Source: a virus
Reading direction: 5' to 3' (one strand)
DNA length: 22,013 nt
IMG/VR virus record: IMGVR_UViG_3300028025_000228
Span: 1 to 22,013 of that record
Below the pieces are notes generated by a model, which worked only from the letters and a program-made list of their open reading frames with translations, was not told the origin of the DNA and did not search any database. The stretch's first letter is position 1, and each line of letters starts with the position of its first letter. This document shows positions 7,132 through 18,212 of the stretch, in pieces. Position numbers and translations under genes: made by a program.

Positions 7132-8040
7132 ATGGCTATTTCACGCGCACAACTACTTAAAGAACTTCTTCCCGGTTTGAATGCCTTGTTTGGCATGGAG
7201 TATAAAACCTACGGCGAACAGCACAAAGAGATTTACGAAACTGAATCTTCAGAGCGTTCGTTTGAGGAAGAGACCAAACTGTCTGGCTTTTCAGCCGCCC
7301 CTGTTAAGAACGAAGGTTCTGCACTGGCGTATGACAATGCTCAGGAAGCTTGGACTGCTCGTTACAACCACGAAACTATTGCATTAGGGTTTTCCCTAAC
7401 AGAAGAAGCAATTGAAGATAACTTGTACGACTCACTGTCGGCTCGTTATACAAAATCGCTTGCTCGCGCAATGGCATACACTAAGCAAGTTAAAGCTGCT
7501 TCTGTCCTCAACAACGGTTTTACCGCTGGTTATGTTGGTGGCGATGGCGTTGTCTTGTTCAGTGCATCACATCCGTTGGTTTCGGGTGGCGTTAACAGCA
7601 ACACACCAGCAGTCGCTGCTGATTTGAATGAAACTTCGTTGGAAAACGCTGTTATTCAAATTGCTGCATGGACTGATGAGCGTGGTTTGCTAATTGCCGC
7701 TAAACCCAAGAAGTTGATTGTTCCTCCCGCACTACAGTTTGTTGCAACTCGTTTGCTCGACACCAAACTGCGTACTGGCACAACCGACAACGACATCAAC
7801 GCGATTGAGAACAACGGTTCGATTCCAGATGGTTACACAATTAACAACTATCTGACCGACACCAATGCTTGGTTCTTGACCACTGATGTGCCTAACGGCT
7901 TAAAGCATTTTGTCCGTACACCACTGTCTAATTCAATGGATGGTGACTTCGATACAGGCAACGTTCGGTATAAGTCTCGTGAACGCTACAGCTTTGGCTG
8001 GAGCGACCCCCTCGGGATGTATGGTTCGCCGGGCGCATAA
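7132..8040 (+). CDS. Major capsid protein (Mu gpT-like, HK97 fold)
   Basis: A 302-residue protein with the features of Mu gpT-like major head subunits. The N-terminus is helical (LLKELLPGLNALFG), with an extended E-loop-like region around YETESSERSFEEETKLSGF. A GFSLTEEAIEDNLYDSL helix, a long spine helix YTKSLARAMAYTKQVKAASVLNN, and a PPALQFVATRLLDTKLRTGT segment follow. It ends with the conserved ERYSFGWSDPLGMYGSPGA. It should form the icosahedral shell built on the scaffold. AAGGAG at 7119-7124 gives a strong ribosome site. An intrinsic terminator follows 32 bases after the stop, which fits a high-level transcript ending here. No cleaved propeptide is obvious. Confidence 0.93.
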   Translation: MAISRAQLLKELLPGLNALFGMEYKTYGEQHKEIYETESSERSFEEETKLSGFSAAPVKNEGSALAYDNAQEAWTARYNHETIALGFSLTEEAIEDNLYDSLSARYTKSLARAMAYTKQVKAASVLNNGFTAGYVGGDGVVLFSASHPLVSGGVNSNTPAVAADLNETSLENAVIQIAAWTDERGLLIAAKPKKLIVPPALQFVATRLLDTKLRTGTTDNDINAIENNGSIPDGYTINNYLTDTNAWFLTTDVPNGLKHFVRTPLSNSMDGDFDTGNVRYKSRERYSFGWSDPLGMYGSPGA

Positions 8041-8071
8041 GCCTTATAAAACAAGCACTTAGTTAGTTTAG

Positions 8072-8096
8072 CCCCCGTCAAAAGCGGGGGTTTTTT
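8072..8096 (+). terminator. Intrinsic terminator after the capsid gene
   Basis: CCCCCG (8072-8077) pairs with CGGGGG (8085-8090) around a 7-base loop and is followed at once by six T (8091-8096). This is a textbook rho-independent terminator for the transcript carrying the capsid gene. A new promoter follows within 5 bases, so transcription appears to be reset at this point. Confidence 0.93.
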
Positions 8097-8100
8097 ATTA

Positions 8101-8109
8101 TGTTATAAT
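8101..8109 (+). promoter_or_regulatory. Extended -10 promoter for the HNH gene
   Basis: TGTTATAAT contains a perfect -10 hexamer (TATAAT, 8104-8109) with the TGn extension that removes the need for a -35 box. No good -35 is seen 17 bases upstream, where the terminator stem lies. Expected transcription start is about 8115-8118, inside the 5' arm of the hairpin at 8113-8139. Confidence 0.75.
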
Positions 8110-8112
8110 TAC

Positions 8113-8135
8113 CCGTATCGTAACTAGGAGACGAT
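8113..8135 (+). repeat. Left copy of degenerate direct repeat flanking the HNH gene
   Basis: CCGTATC (8113-8119) followed after 4 bases by CTAGGAGACGAT (8124-8135). The same two blocks in the same order recur downstream of the gene at 8747-8772 with a 7-base spacer and one mismatch. Confidence 0.55.
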
Positions 8136-8139
8136 ATGG
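8113..8139 (+). promoter_or_regulatory. Hairpin over the HNH start codon
   Basis: Bases 8113-8121 can pair with 8131-8139 (nine pairs, one of them G-U). The 9-base loop carries the Shine-Dalgarno AGGAG (8126-8130), and the ATG (8136-8138) lies in the 3' arm. Read-through RNA from the capsid operon would carry the whole stem. RNA started at the extended -10 promoter would lack the first 2-5 bases of it. This suggests translation control of the endonuclease. Confidence 0.6.
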
Positions 8140-8723: not shown

Positions 8724-8746
8724 TGCAGTACGACTAGGACTAAATG

Positions 8747-8772
8747 CCGTATCAACCCGCCTAGGGGACGAT
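8747..8772 (+). repeat. Right copy of degenerate direct repeat flanking the HNH gene
   Basis: CCGTATC (8747-8753) and CTAGGGGACGAT (8761-8772) repeat the blocks seen at 8113-8135. Here the AGGGG is 45 bases from the next real start, so it is not the active ribosome site. It may be a relic of the original leader that the HNH gene entered. Confidence 0.55.
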
Positions 8773-8805
8773 GCACAGATGATACGGTGACTTGTGCATA
8801 AAGGA
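8747..8805 (+). promoter_or_regulatory. Structured leader with interleaved stems before the ribosome site
   Basis: Stem A pairs CCGTATCA (8747-8754) with TGATACGG (8780-8787). Stem B pairs ATGCACA (8771-8777) with TGTGCAT (8793-8799). The arms alternate, so the RNA could form a pseudoknot or switch between the two stems. Inside stem A, CCC (8756-8758) can pair with GGG (8765-8767). Stem B ends one base before the Shine-Dalgarno AAGGA (8801-8805) of the gene starting at 8813. I do not recognise it as a named riboswitch. Confidence 0.5.
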
Positions 8806-10759: not shown

Positions 10760-11137
10760 ATGAAAAAGAAACGGTTTGCAGATGGCGGAATGTACGATGC
10801 AGGTAATGACTTGCCTAAAGATATGGGCAGAATGTCAGGAGGAATTTCTGGAGGCTTACCTCCTTTGCGCCGAACAACTCCTACATTAAGCGATGATCAA
10901 ATTGCTGGGAAAATGAAACTTCAAAAGTTAAAAGATACTTACGGTCCAAATCAAGATGAACGAGACCGCATGGAACGCGCAGCATTAGCAGAAGAAGCTA
11001 AACCTAAAGTTTATATGAGTCCTGACGGCAGGACAGGCGGCATGGGTCCACTTAAAAAGATGGCTAAAGGCGGGTCTGCATCAAAACGTGGCGACGGTTG
11101 TTGTTCTAAGGGCAAGACTAAAGGTCGAATGGTATGA
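10760..11137 (+). CDS. Gly-rich basic protein with CCSKGKTKG tail
   Basis: A 125-residue protein with an N-terminal FADGGMYDAGNDLP element, a Gly/Ser-Pro segment, a charged helical middle (DERDRMERAALAEEAK), and a C-terminus KKMAKGGSASKRGDGCCSKG ending KTKGRMV. The tail repeats the SKGKTKG motif of the upstream protein, and the coding DNA of that element (11105-11124) is nearly identical to 10691-10710, which suggests duplication or exchange. AAGGA at 10749-10753 lies 6 bases before ATG 10760. The stop overlaps the next start as ATGA. The function is unknown. Confidence 0.7.
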   Translation: MKKKRFADGGMYDAGNDLPKDMGRMSGGISGGLPPLRRTTPTLSDDQIAGKMKLQKLKDTYGPNQDERDRMERAALAEEAKPKVYMSPDGRTGGMGPLKKMAKGGSASKRGDGCCSKGKTKGRMV

Positions 11138-15658: not shown

Positions 15659-16450
15659 ATGCAGGTTTATAAGATAGCCAACTTAGTCAATGACCGTGTT
15701 TATATCGGGTTGACTACTTGTGCGCTATCAAAACGTTGGCGTGAACATAAGTGTGCGGCTAACACAGACGTTGATAAACCGCTGTACCGCGCCATGCGTA
15801 AACATGGCGTTAGTAATTTTTACATCGAACCTATATATGAAACGCAAGACGTACAGGCTTTGCGCGATGCAGAGATGTCATTGATTGGTGACTACAAAGC
15901 GCATGTCAGCGATGGCGGTTATAACTTAACGGATCATGGTTTTAATTACGGCAATCAAAATACTGCCAAAGGCGAACAGCAAGCGCAGTCACTGCTAACA
16001 GAACAAATTGTTCAATACATCAGGAATCCAGACACAGCATCAGTTACCAATCAAGTTTTGGTTGATGAAGTGTTAAGCGTATTTGGCGTGTTGGCAAGCA
16101 GGGACTGTATTCGTGATGCGCGGCGTGGTTCTCGTTGGTCGCATTTAAATGACAAATTTCCGCCGGTAAAAATTGGTCGAGGCGCTAGAAGTGAACTTTC
16201 AACAGATGGCAAGATTCAAGCCGTTAACACATTAAACAAACATCGTGGCAATGCGGTTAAAGCGTCTTGTGAATCTAGGGTTGGTAAACGTGGCAATCAC
16301 GCTAAACTATCTGTGGATAAAGTTAAAGAAATATTTTATAGTCCATTATCGCTATCTAAAACTGCTGTTGAGCATGGGGTAAGCAAGAGAATGGTCTTAT
16401 TTATTAAACAGCGCAAAGCGCATGTCTATTTGACAAAGGATTTACCATGA
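15659..16450 (+). CDS. GIY-YIG homing-type endonuclease
   Basis: A 263-residue protein. The catalytic module is residues 1-95: VYK (3-5) and YIG (15-17) in place of GIY and YIG, an Arg in SKRWREH (R26 or R28), the metal-binding Glu72 in AEMSLIG, and GGYNLTDHG at the domain end. Two helix-turn-helix-like segments follow, about 112-165 (LLTEQIVQYIRNP ... SRDCIRDARRGSRWSHL) and 215-258 (LSVDKVKEIFYSP ... SKRMVLFIKQRKAH), as in DNA-binding tails of homing enzymes. AAGGA at 15648-15652 precedes ATG 15659. The stop overlaps the following fibre gene as ATGA. It lies between two tail genes, so it is probably a free-standing selfish nuclease; key residues look intact. Confidence 0.88.
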   Translation: MQVYKIANLVNDRVYIGLTTCALSKRWREHKCAANTDVDKPLYRAMRKHGVSNFYIEPIYETQDVQALRDAEMSLIGDYKAHVSDGGYNLTDHGFNYGNQNTAKGEQQAQSLLTEQIVQYIRNPDTASVTNQVLVDEVLSVFGVLASRDCIRDARRGSRWSHLNDKFPPVKIGRGARSELSTDGKIQAVNTLNKHRGNAVKASCESRVGKRGNHAKLSVDKVKEIFYSPLSLSKTAVEHGVSKRMVLFIKQRKAHVYLTKDLP

Positions 16451-17637
16451 CTACAGCTTATACCCCAATACTGCAATTGGCGTTGCCTGTTACGGGCGAG
16501 CTGAATGGTACTTGGGGAGATACGGTCAACAACAACATTACGTCAATGATTGAGCAAGCAATTGCTGGTCTTGCCACAATTAACACTTGGACTACTGCCA
16601 GTCACACACTGACCACCGCAGACGGAACCACAGACGAAGCACGTTGTGCGATCCTGCAATGTTCAGGCACACCGGGCGCAGCAGCTACGGTTATCTGCCC
16701 TGCGTTGTCCAAGATTTACATCATCAAAAATTCGGTATCTGGCGGCTACGCAGTTACGTTAAAAACCTCTGCGGGTACAGGTATTTCTGTACCTAATGGC
16801 GGCACAGCCCTGTTGTATTGTGATGGTACAAACGTGGTGAGCGGTGGTGGTTTAAACGGTGATGTTGTTGGTCCTGCTTCAGCCACAGATACAGCCATTG
16901 CAACCTTTGATGGGGTTACAGGCAAGCTCATCAAGAACAATGCAAGCGTGACCATTGCGGCTAACGTCATCACAGCACTGGGCTTCTCAGGTCCTTTGAA
17001 TGGTACTGTTGGGGCGACTACTCCTAACACGGCGGCAGTCACGACTCTGTCTGCTACGGGCGCGATTACTTCTACGCTTGTGACCGGCACGGCTCCTTTG
17101 GTTGTGGCATCGACCACTAAGGTAACCAACCTGAACGTGGATCAGCTTGACGGTGCAGACTGGGCATCTCCTGCGGCAATTGGTTCGACTACTCCTGCTG
17201 CTGGTGCGTTCACAACGCTCTCAGCATCCTCAACGGTATCCGGCGCAGGTATTACATCACTCTTTGCAAGCCCACCAGCGCTGGGTACAACTGCCCCTGC
17301 TGAAGTTAAAACAACAACAGGCTGGGCTGCTAACCTTACGCTGACTGACGCTGCTACGATTGCTTGGGATACCGCAACAAGTCAAGTTGCTACATTCACC
17401 TTTGTATCAAGCAACCGCACAATGGGCGCACCGACTAACCTGAAGAACGGTGCGTTCTATGCCTTGGCTGTGATTCAGAACGGCGGGTCTAATACGTTAA
17501 CGTGGGCAAGTAATTTTAAGTGGGCGGCAGGAACAGCACCGACCTTATCCACGGCGGCAGGGGCAAAGGATTACTTCACATTCAGAAGCGACGGGGTTTC
17601 TCTCTTCCAGCAAGGTATCTCGCAGGCGGTTGCATAA
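16447..17637 (+). CDS. Tail fibre protein
   Basis: A 396-residue, Thr/Ala/Gly-rich protein. The N-terminus YTPILQLALPVTGELNGTWG and DTVNNNITSMIEQAIAG is the standard start of a common phage tail-fibre family. The middle contains fibre repeats of the form G(A/S)TTPxxAAxTTLSAxxxxS (about 189-215 and 255-277) and TTKVTNLNVDQLDGADWASP. The C-terminus, WAANLTLTDAATIAWDTATS and KNGAFYALAVIQNGGSNTLT, ends in the frequent FRSDGVSLFQQGIS motif. It should form a trimeric fibre for host contact. It begins inside the GIY-YIG stop (ATGA) and ends inside the second HNH start (TAATG). Confidence 0.87.
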   Translation: MTTAYTPILQLALPVTGELNGTWGDTVNNNITSMIEQAIAGLATINTWTTASHTLTTADGTTDEARCAILQCSGTPGAAATVICPALSKIYIIKNSVSGGYAVTLKTSAGTGISVPNGGTALLYCDGTNVVSGGGLNGDVVGPASATDTAIATFDGVTGKLIKNNASVTIAANVITALGFSGPLNGTVGATTPNTAAVTTLSATGAITSTLVTGTAPLVVASTTKVTNLNVDQLDGADWASPAAIGSTTPAAGAFTTLSASSTVSGAGITSLFASPPALGTTAPAEVKTTTGWAANLTLTDAATIAWDTATSQVATFTFVSSNRTMGAPTNLKNGAFYALAVIQNGGSNTLTWASNFKWAAGTAPTLSTAAGAKDYFTFRSDGVSLFQQGISQAVA

Positions 17638-18212
17638 TGGCTAGGCAAACGTGGGAGTACACATACTCAAACATGATGGCGCGTTGCTACCGTGTTGCCA
17701 ATAAAGATTACCATTCATATGGTGGTCGGGGCATAACCGTTTGCGCCGAATGGAAAAATAACCCCAAGCAATTTCACGCCGATATGGGCAACAAGCCTGA
17801 AGGTATGACTCTTGATCGCATTGACCCGAACAAAGGATACTCGCCTGACAATTGTCGATGGGCTTCTTTTAAGCAGCAAGGCAGAAATCGAACAGATAAT
17901 ACAATTGTTGAGTTTAATGGCGTAAAGATGTGTGTTGCTGAAGCCGCTGAGTTGTCTGGAATTTTGCCAGAAACCATTCATGGCAGACTGCGCCGCAATG
18001 CGTCAAATTTGTTTGTTACCCCGCTACCTCGCGGCAAGAACCGTGATAAAACAGCCCAAGTCGTTACACCCTCAGGCGAGCATATTGTGGCATCAAATAT
18101 CAAGCAATTTTGTTTGCAGCACAACCTAGACCACAGCACAATGACCAAAGTGTTGCGTGGCGTTAAGCCAGCACATAAAGGCTTCACCGGTCACTATCTG
18201 GAGGCTGCTTAA
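17637..18212 (+). CDS. HNH endonuclease with C-terminal DNA-binding modules
   Basis: A 191-residue protein. Residues 8-88 match a familiar phage HNH family: YSNMMARCYRV, YHSYGGRGITVCAEWKN, then GMTLDRIDPNKGYSPDNCRW and QGRNRTDN. A helix-turn-helix-like segment lies at 97-121 (CVAEAAELSGILPETIHGRL) and a NUMOD-type segment at 142-188 (TPSGEHIVASNIKQFC, KVLRGVKPAHKGFTGHYL). I use ATG 17637, which overlaps the fibre stop as TAATG; the open frame upstream only overlaps the fibre gene. The stop overlaps the next gene the same way. It therefore sits between two fibre genes without disturbing co-translation. A homing or selfish nuclease is likely. Confidence 0.87.
   Translation: MARQTWEYTYSNMMARCYRVANKDYHSYGGRGITVCAEWKNNPKQFHADMGNKPEGMTLDRIDPNKGYSPDNCRWASFKQQGRNRTDNTIVEFNGVKMCVAEAAELSGILPETIHGRLRRNASNLFVTPLPRGKNRDKTAQVVTPSGEHIVASNIKQFCLQHNLDHSTMTKVLRGVKPAHKGFTGHYLEAA

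Follow-up and report, generated by a model that had tools for sequence, protein, structure and literature searches.

The closest described parallel to the locus reported here is the gene of I-TevI in the td intron of phage T4, whose product represses its own synthesis at an operator that overlaps the promoter and is identical to the homing site at 15 of 20 positions (PMC2988022). In addition, RNA structure sequesters the ribosome binding site (RBS) of I-TevI on early and middle transcripts, whereas late transcripts leave it accessible (PMC2988022). I-TevII and I-TevIII have putative operators, and in the T4 review target-mimicking operators are attributed to intron-encoded endonucleases only and proven for one of them (PMC2988022). 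RNA structures that hide the RBS on upstream transcripts are also found in T4 segB and in mobE of Aeromonas phage Aeh1, free-standing homing genes with a promoter close to the gene (PMC2988022, PMC3014915). A related arrangement occurs in the leaders of T4 gene e (lysozyme) and soc, in which a start-site helix forms only in longer transcripts, the 5' strand of the helix being encoded at the local promoter (PMC3014915). Finally, the homing endonuclease I-AniI tolerates changes at the wobble positions of its target (PMC3943268).

On paper, an HNH gene located downstream of the major capsid protein gene in the window, i.e. the whole stretch of 22,013 nucleotides of viral DNA analyzed here, would work like the T4 set, in unrelated phages. 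As with I-TevI, a promoter-overlapping sequence resembles a target in a neighboring conserved gene, and the structure over the RBS is predicted to need sequence upstream of the start of the local promoter. The differences are that the gene is free-standing and of the HNH type whereas I-TevI is an intron-encoded GIY-YIG enzyme, that the promoter is of the sigma70 type instead of a T4 late promoter, and that the candidate target is a capsid gene, with hairpins that are not conserved. The locus shares its free-standing nature and close promoter with mobE and segB, and the HNH type with mobE, but the review describes no target-mimicking operator for these two, and they are inserted at other genes. 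As in gene e and soc, the 5' strand of the helix is encoded at the local promoter, although those genes are not mobile and use T4 late promoters. We consider it reasonably probable that the locus encodes a free-standing HNH homing endonuclease that targets the capsid gene and represses itself, with a hairpin as a weaker second lock.

The protein is similar over most of its length to endonuclease VII and HNH phage nucleases (phrog_26577, E 5e-25; phrog_1035, E 6e-16). These profile matches and the conserved HNH residues place it in the HNH/endonuclease VII-like group: an N-terminal domain carries C24..GH28..C38xxC41, the C-terminal region carries the HNH motif VVDHIxPL...NL...N, and D152, H153, N170, N179, and N184 are invariant in the family alignment. 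Unlike in the endonuclease VII class, a resolvase or cleavage role is putative here, and the protein has no Pfam match. No PDB relative was found by sequence at E<0.1, and comparison of its AlphaFold model with the PDB gave no confident relative by fold.

Searches of IMG/VR with three starting proteins and two leader-pattern scans yielded a family of 136 distinct leaders, in 134 of which the HNH gene lies directly 3' of the capsid gene. Two subfamilies with about 50% protein identity are distinguished, family 1 (80 leaders) and family 2 (54 leaders). In contrast, the HNH gene is absent from this position in 60 loci with the capsid 3' end, and in most of them the terminator directly adjoins the promoter and the structured leader that belong to the next gene. 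Like homing genes, the HNH gene thus forms its own ORF at a fixed insertion site beside a conserved gene and is exchanged horizontally with respect to the flanking genes. Indeed, HNH and capsid identities are weakly correlated (rho 0.23), and capsid proteins 94–96% identical are paired with HNH proteins only 46–53% identical, the reverse case being found as well, which fits a mobile gene with one fixed site. Some relatives devoid of the HNH gene (L110, L113, and L153) have a GIY-YIG-nuclease-like ORF (e.g. MARGIYKIINIVNNKFYVGSAVN in L110) in the same slot, which therefore seems to be a repeated landing place. Elsewhere in the window, a GIY-YIG homing endonuclease gene (15659–16450) and an HNH endonuclease gene (phrog_3377; 17634–18212) are set tight against or into neighboring structural genes, with little room for a promoter of their own.

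Table 1. Features of the capsid–HNH region of the window
Feature	Position	Strand	Basis or remark
Major capsid protein gene (Mu gpT-like), upstream neighbor and proposed target	7132..8040	+	phrog_371, PF10124
Proposed recognition site TTGCCTGTATCGAAGTCACC, opposite the GDFDTG(N) codons	7942..7961	-	best family-2 matrix match in the window
Intrinsic terminator of the capsid transcription unit	8070..8097	+	stem, loop, and T tract; 134/134 related leaders
Extended -10 promoter TGTTATAAT	8101..8109	+	sequence; start predicted at 8115-8117
Conserved block TTACCCGTATCGTAAC, proposed autorepression operator	8109..8124	+	family-1 consensus TTNCYCGTRTCRTAAC
Start-codon hairpin, 9 pairs	8113..8139	+	-11.1 kcal/mol, z -3.2; not conserved as such
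Shine-Dalgarno (SD) sequence AGGAG	8126..8130	+	sequence; in the hairpin loop
HNH/endonuclease VII-like gene, 189 aa	8136..8705	+	phrog_26577, phrog_1035, phrog_1081; invariant residues
Pseudoknotted leader RNA before the next gene	8734..8805	+	pairing and covariation, 40 sequences
Helix a of the leader RNA	8734-8738/8760-8764	+	
Helix b of the leader RNA	8747-8754/8780-8787	+	
Helix c of the leader RNA	8756-8758/8765-8767	+	
Helix d of the leader RNA	8771-8777/8793-8799	+	
SD of the pseudoknotted leader	8800-8805	+	adjoins helix d

An intrinsic terminator and an extended -10 promoter had been proposed in the initial annotation between the capsid stop codon (at 8040) and the HNH start codon (8136–8138), and both are present. 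The terminator has a stem of 8–9 bp (8070/8071–8091/8092), a loop of 5, and a T tract, and such a terminator occurs at most 110 nt upstream in every one of the 134 related leaders. The extended -10 element consists of TG (8101–8102) and TATAAT (8104–8109); the -10 is common to the relatives, with at least 4 of 6 matches in 130 of 134 and a TGn in 55. Because the window leader lacks an acceptable -35, its promoter rests on the extended -10, and a consensus scan reports no promoter there. Among the related leaders, L038 and L080, for example, have TTGACA at promoter spacing, which speaks for a real promoter here. A full TTGACA -35 precedes the same -10 and block in L038, L057, L080, L185, and L190; in the window and in other relatives, the -10 region lies directly 3' of the terminator without a full -35. 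Promoter strength may differ between clades.

The leader contains a conserved block of 16–20 nt that spans the discriminator, the start site, and the leader, and that contains the 5' arm of the hairpin. Its consensus is TTNCYCGTRTCRTAAC in the 80 leaders of family 1 and TTACCTGTTACTAAGTCAC in the 54 of family 2, the block being conserved across subfamilies about 50% identical in protein. In the viral collection, matches to the block pattern almost all precede this HNH family, with few chance hits elsewhere. The block matches the reverse complement of a conserved capsid-gene stretch (7942–7961) that encodes GDFDTGN; in many loci, its best match falls here, on the minus strand of the capsid gene and some 200 nt 5' of the start of the HNH gene. 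With matrices built on the 20-mer 8109–8128 and its counterparts, the family-2 matrix, which contains no window sequence, ranks 7942–7961 first of ~44,000 window positions (19.1, the next being 13.2) and above the leader of the window itself; with a combined matrix, the scores are 21.3 (capsid site), 21.6 (leader), and 10.2 (next site). A score of 19.1 is attained by column-permuted matrices in 2 of 20,000 cases within the capsid gene and in 7 of 2,500 in the window, the latter being a moderate genome-wide significance; for the family-1 block, p = 0.007 within the capsid gene. When the matrix of one family is applied to the other, the capsid site is the top match in 76 of 78 and 48 of 52 loci (6–11 thousand positions each), which, the capsid site being one conserved site, are not independent tests. 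Furthermore, the conserved columns of the block fall mainly on capsid codon positions 1 and 2 and the variable ones on the wobble position (p 0.010 and 0.007).

Block and candidate target are identical at 11–13 of 20 positions on average and at 15 of 20 at best. The flanks of the 20-mer are only 19–29% identical, and a long inverted duplication of capsid sequence is ruled out since the likeness stops at the 20-mer. The blocks of the two families match partly different halves of the capsid site, as if both had decayed from a full copy. As would be expected of an autorepression operator, the promoter is thus overlapped by a block that resembles the candidate homing site. The same site is present in the capsid genes of loci with and without the HNH gene, which counts against the proposed cutting, since it would also expose the donors; a resistant capsid site was looked for in HNH-containing genomes and not seen. 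With a family-1 14-mer matrix, the best match in the window outside the leader is at 10793–10806 (minus strand, TTACCTGCATCGTA; 15.1 versus 14.5 for the capsid site), which is either due to chance or a further putative binding site.

The nine-pair hairpin on which the initial annotation had focused, and which presents the SD in the loop while enclosing the ATG in the stem, was recovered. Its arms, 8113–8121 and 8131–8139, pair from C8113–G8139 to T8121–A8131 with one G–U among the nine pairs; the loop, AACTAGGAG, contains the AGGAG and the 3' arm contains the ATG. The segment 8112–8140 folds at -11.1 kcal/mol (z -3.2) and none of 200 shuffles is equally stable; for a longer leader, 11 of 200 shuffles fold equally well. 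Transcription from the local promoter was thought to truncate the hairpin. It would weaken it, the fold dropping to -6.4, -5.8, -4.6, and -3.4 kcal/mol for starts at 8115, 8116, 8117, and 8118, respectively, but it would not abolish it, since 4–7 pairs survive. The expectation that related phages keep the stem along with the gene failed: the closest relative (L002), with 95% protein identity, and many other related leaders lack the nine-pair stem. The gene being kept and the stem not, the hairpin was rejected as a conserved structure. Moreover, its 5' arm is conserved even in related leaders whose 3' arm cannot pair with it, and therefore for a reason other than pairing.

Read-through RNA from the capsid operon was also supposed to hide the RBS, and this is supported in part, for the family rather than for the window. 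The segment analyzed in the 134 leaders comprised the last 20 nt before the predicted start, which only read-through RNA contains. With these 20 nt, opening the SD and AUG costs 9.4 kcal/mol in family 1 and 8.4 kcal/mol in family 2 instead of about 4.6 kcal/mol; with shuffled upstream segments, it costs 7.4 and 6.3 kcal/mol, respectively. The mean rank against own shuffles is 0.28 and 0.23 in the two families and 0.52 in 250 control genes. The opening cost also exceeds that obtained with segments swapped from family members (p 0.0014 with 28 clusters and 0.017 with 20 clusters, the clusters being taken as independent although they share ancestry). In the window, the upstream segment does no better than its own shuffles (rank 0.6). 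Read-through occlusion is a likely but weak property of the family, carried by differing helices, and putative for the leader of the window. Several clades have long helices that join the -10 box to the start region, the -10 box itself pairing with the SD–AUG region in L081 (ATAATTACC/GGTAATTAT), L162 (ATGATTTCC/GGAAATCAT), and L077 (ATATTACC/GGTAATAT). Covariation is not strong in any one of the 26 helix registers (best z 3.5), the signal being spread and modest; a single shared helix between the -10 box and the RBS reached significance in a permutation without clustering, but with clustering the signal was weak in each register. The pairing of these two elements appears to be a weak family tendency only.

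The I-TevI-like logic initially read into the hairpin therefore retains its family-level occlusion and its precedents (PMC2988022) and loses the conserved stem and the full release of local RNA. It is unlikely that a T4-style translational switch alone accounts for the leader, with a start site hidden in read-through RNA only and a block that is just promoter and initial transcribed sequence. The stability of the hairpin, the added occlusion that the segment 5' of the start brings across the family, and the switches known for I-TevI, segB, and mobE (PMC2988022) speak for it, but L002 and many other relatives retain the block and not the stem, local transcripts keep several pairs here, and neither the capsid match of the block nor its wobble-phase variability would be explained. 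Judged on these patterns, the capsid resemblance, which the initial annotation does not mention, is the stronger explanation of the leader.

We regard as rather unlikely that the block is the operator of another phage or host regulator and resembles the capsid gene by coincidence. A conserved promoter-overlapping block would suit any repressor, and the moderate genome-wide p leaves room for chance; however, the block accompanies this HNH family alone, across many phage backgrounds, the capsid site ranks top with the cross-family matrices, and the variation of the block follows the wobble periodicity. That the block pairs as RNA with capsid mRNA, by long-range pairing in read-through RNA or in trans, and blocks the ribosome or the capsid message, is very improbable. 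Block and capsid coding strand are complementary over about 12–15 positions, but some mismatches are fixed although they could easily be repaired, and no co-adaptation between a block and its own capsid site was detected, with or without G–U pairs (p 0.34–0.82), which favors protein–DNA recognition over RNA pairing. Least probable of all is an ordinary HNH gene with an ordinary promoter and two coincidences, since, even if AT-rich promoters and purine-rich SDs fold easily, as the longer-leader shuffles illustrate, control genes show no such occlusion and the block is conserved between distant subfamilies.

The mechanism that we favor, autorepression by a homing endonuclease through a copy of its target, builds on what computation established: the slot, the conserved promoter–leader block, its capsid resemblance, and the exchange that the HNH gene has undergone with respect to the capsid gene. 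The endonuclease gene would fill a fixed slot extending from the capsid terminator to the promoter and leader of the next gene. The enzyme would bind the capsid stretch TTNCCNGTRTCRAARTCNCC, synonymous changes being tolerated, and cut the capsid genes of element-free phages, upon which the element would be copied along with its flanks. Like I-TevI, it would also turn off its own promoter, by binding the look-alike block over the -10 and start site. The capsid operon usually ranks among the most highly expressed operons of a phage, and read-through from it would meet two barriers: the terminator, and then an RNA structure that masks the start site and depends on sequence located at the local start or 5' of it. 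In the window, the nine-pair hairpin would play this role, and transcription from the local promoter would no more than weaken it. Of the whole mechanism, the hairpin step is the least certain, and the RNA hairpin is probably a weaker second lock whose exact form varies between phages.

A broader reading appears to us evenly balanced between right and wrong, namely that a widespread HNH family of uncultured phages has copied its capsid target as its own operator, that autorepression by target mimicry recurs outside introns and T4-like phages, and that clade-specific read-through hairpins have arisen in the same bases, some pairing the -10 hexamer with the start codon. If so, the target of a free-standing nuclease could be read from its promoter, the operator being a footprint of binding specificity, homing targets would become predictable for uncultured phages, and the locus would illustrate how a selfish gene persists downstream of a capsid operon.

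A pseudoknotted leader RNA lies between the HNH gene and the gene that follows. Most relatives have this leader, whether they contain the HNH gene or not, and where the HNH gene is missing it lies directly 3' of the capsid terminator. A similarity of 8113–8139 to CCGTATC...TGATACGG at 8747–8787 turned out to belong to this RNA and was discarded as a leader repeat. The order of its four helices is a-b-c-a'-c'-d-b'-d'-SD. In 40 sequences, 84.8% of cells pair, against 27–41% when slid, a coverage that leans toward the structure because the search that collected the sequences required pairing, while the variety of pairs is independent of that requirement. Changes on both sides of a pair are found in 183 cells versus 60 in shuffles, and covariation reaches 0.54 versus 0.20. 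The leader has no match in Rfam 15, and no Rfam family reached its gathering score, with two sub-threshold terminator-like matches only; it is possibly a new family of cis-regulatory RNAs. In phage DSL-LC04 (L321), the same leader precedes a gene annotated as a cement protein; a role in the translational control of a capsid decoration gene is possible.
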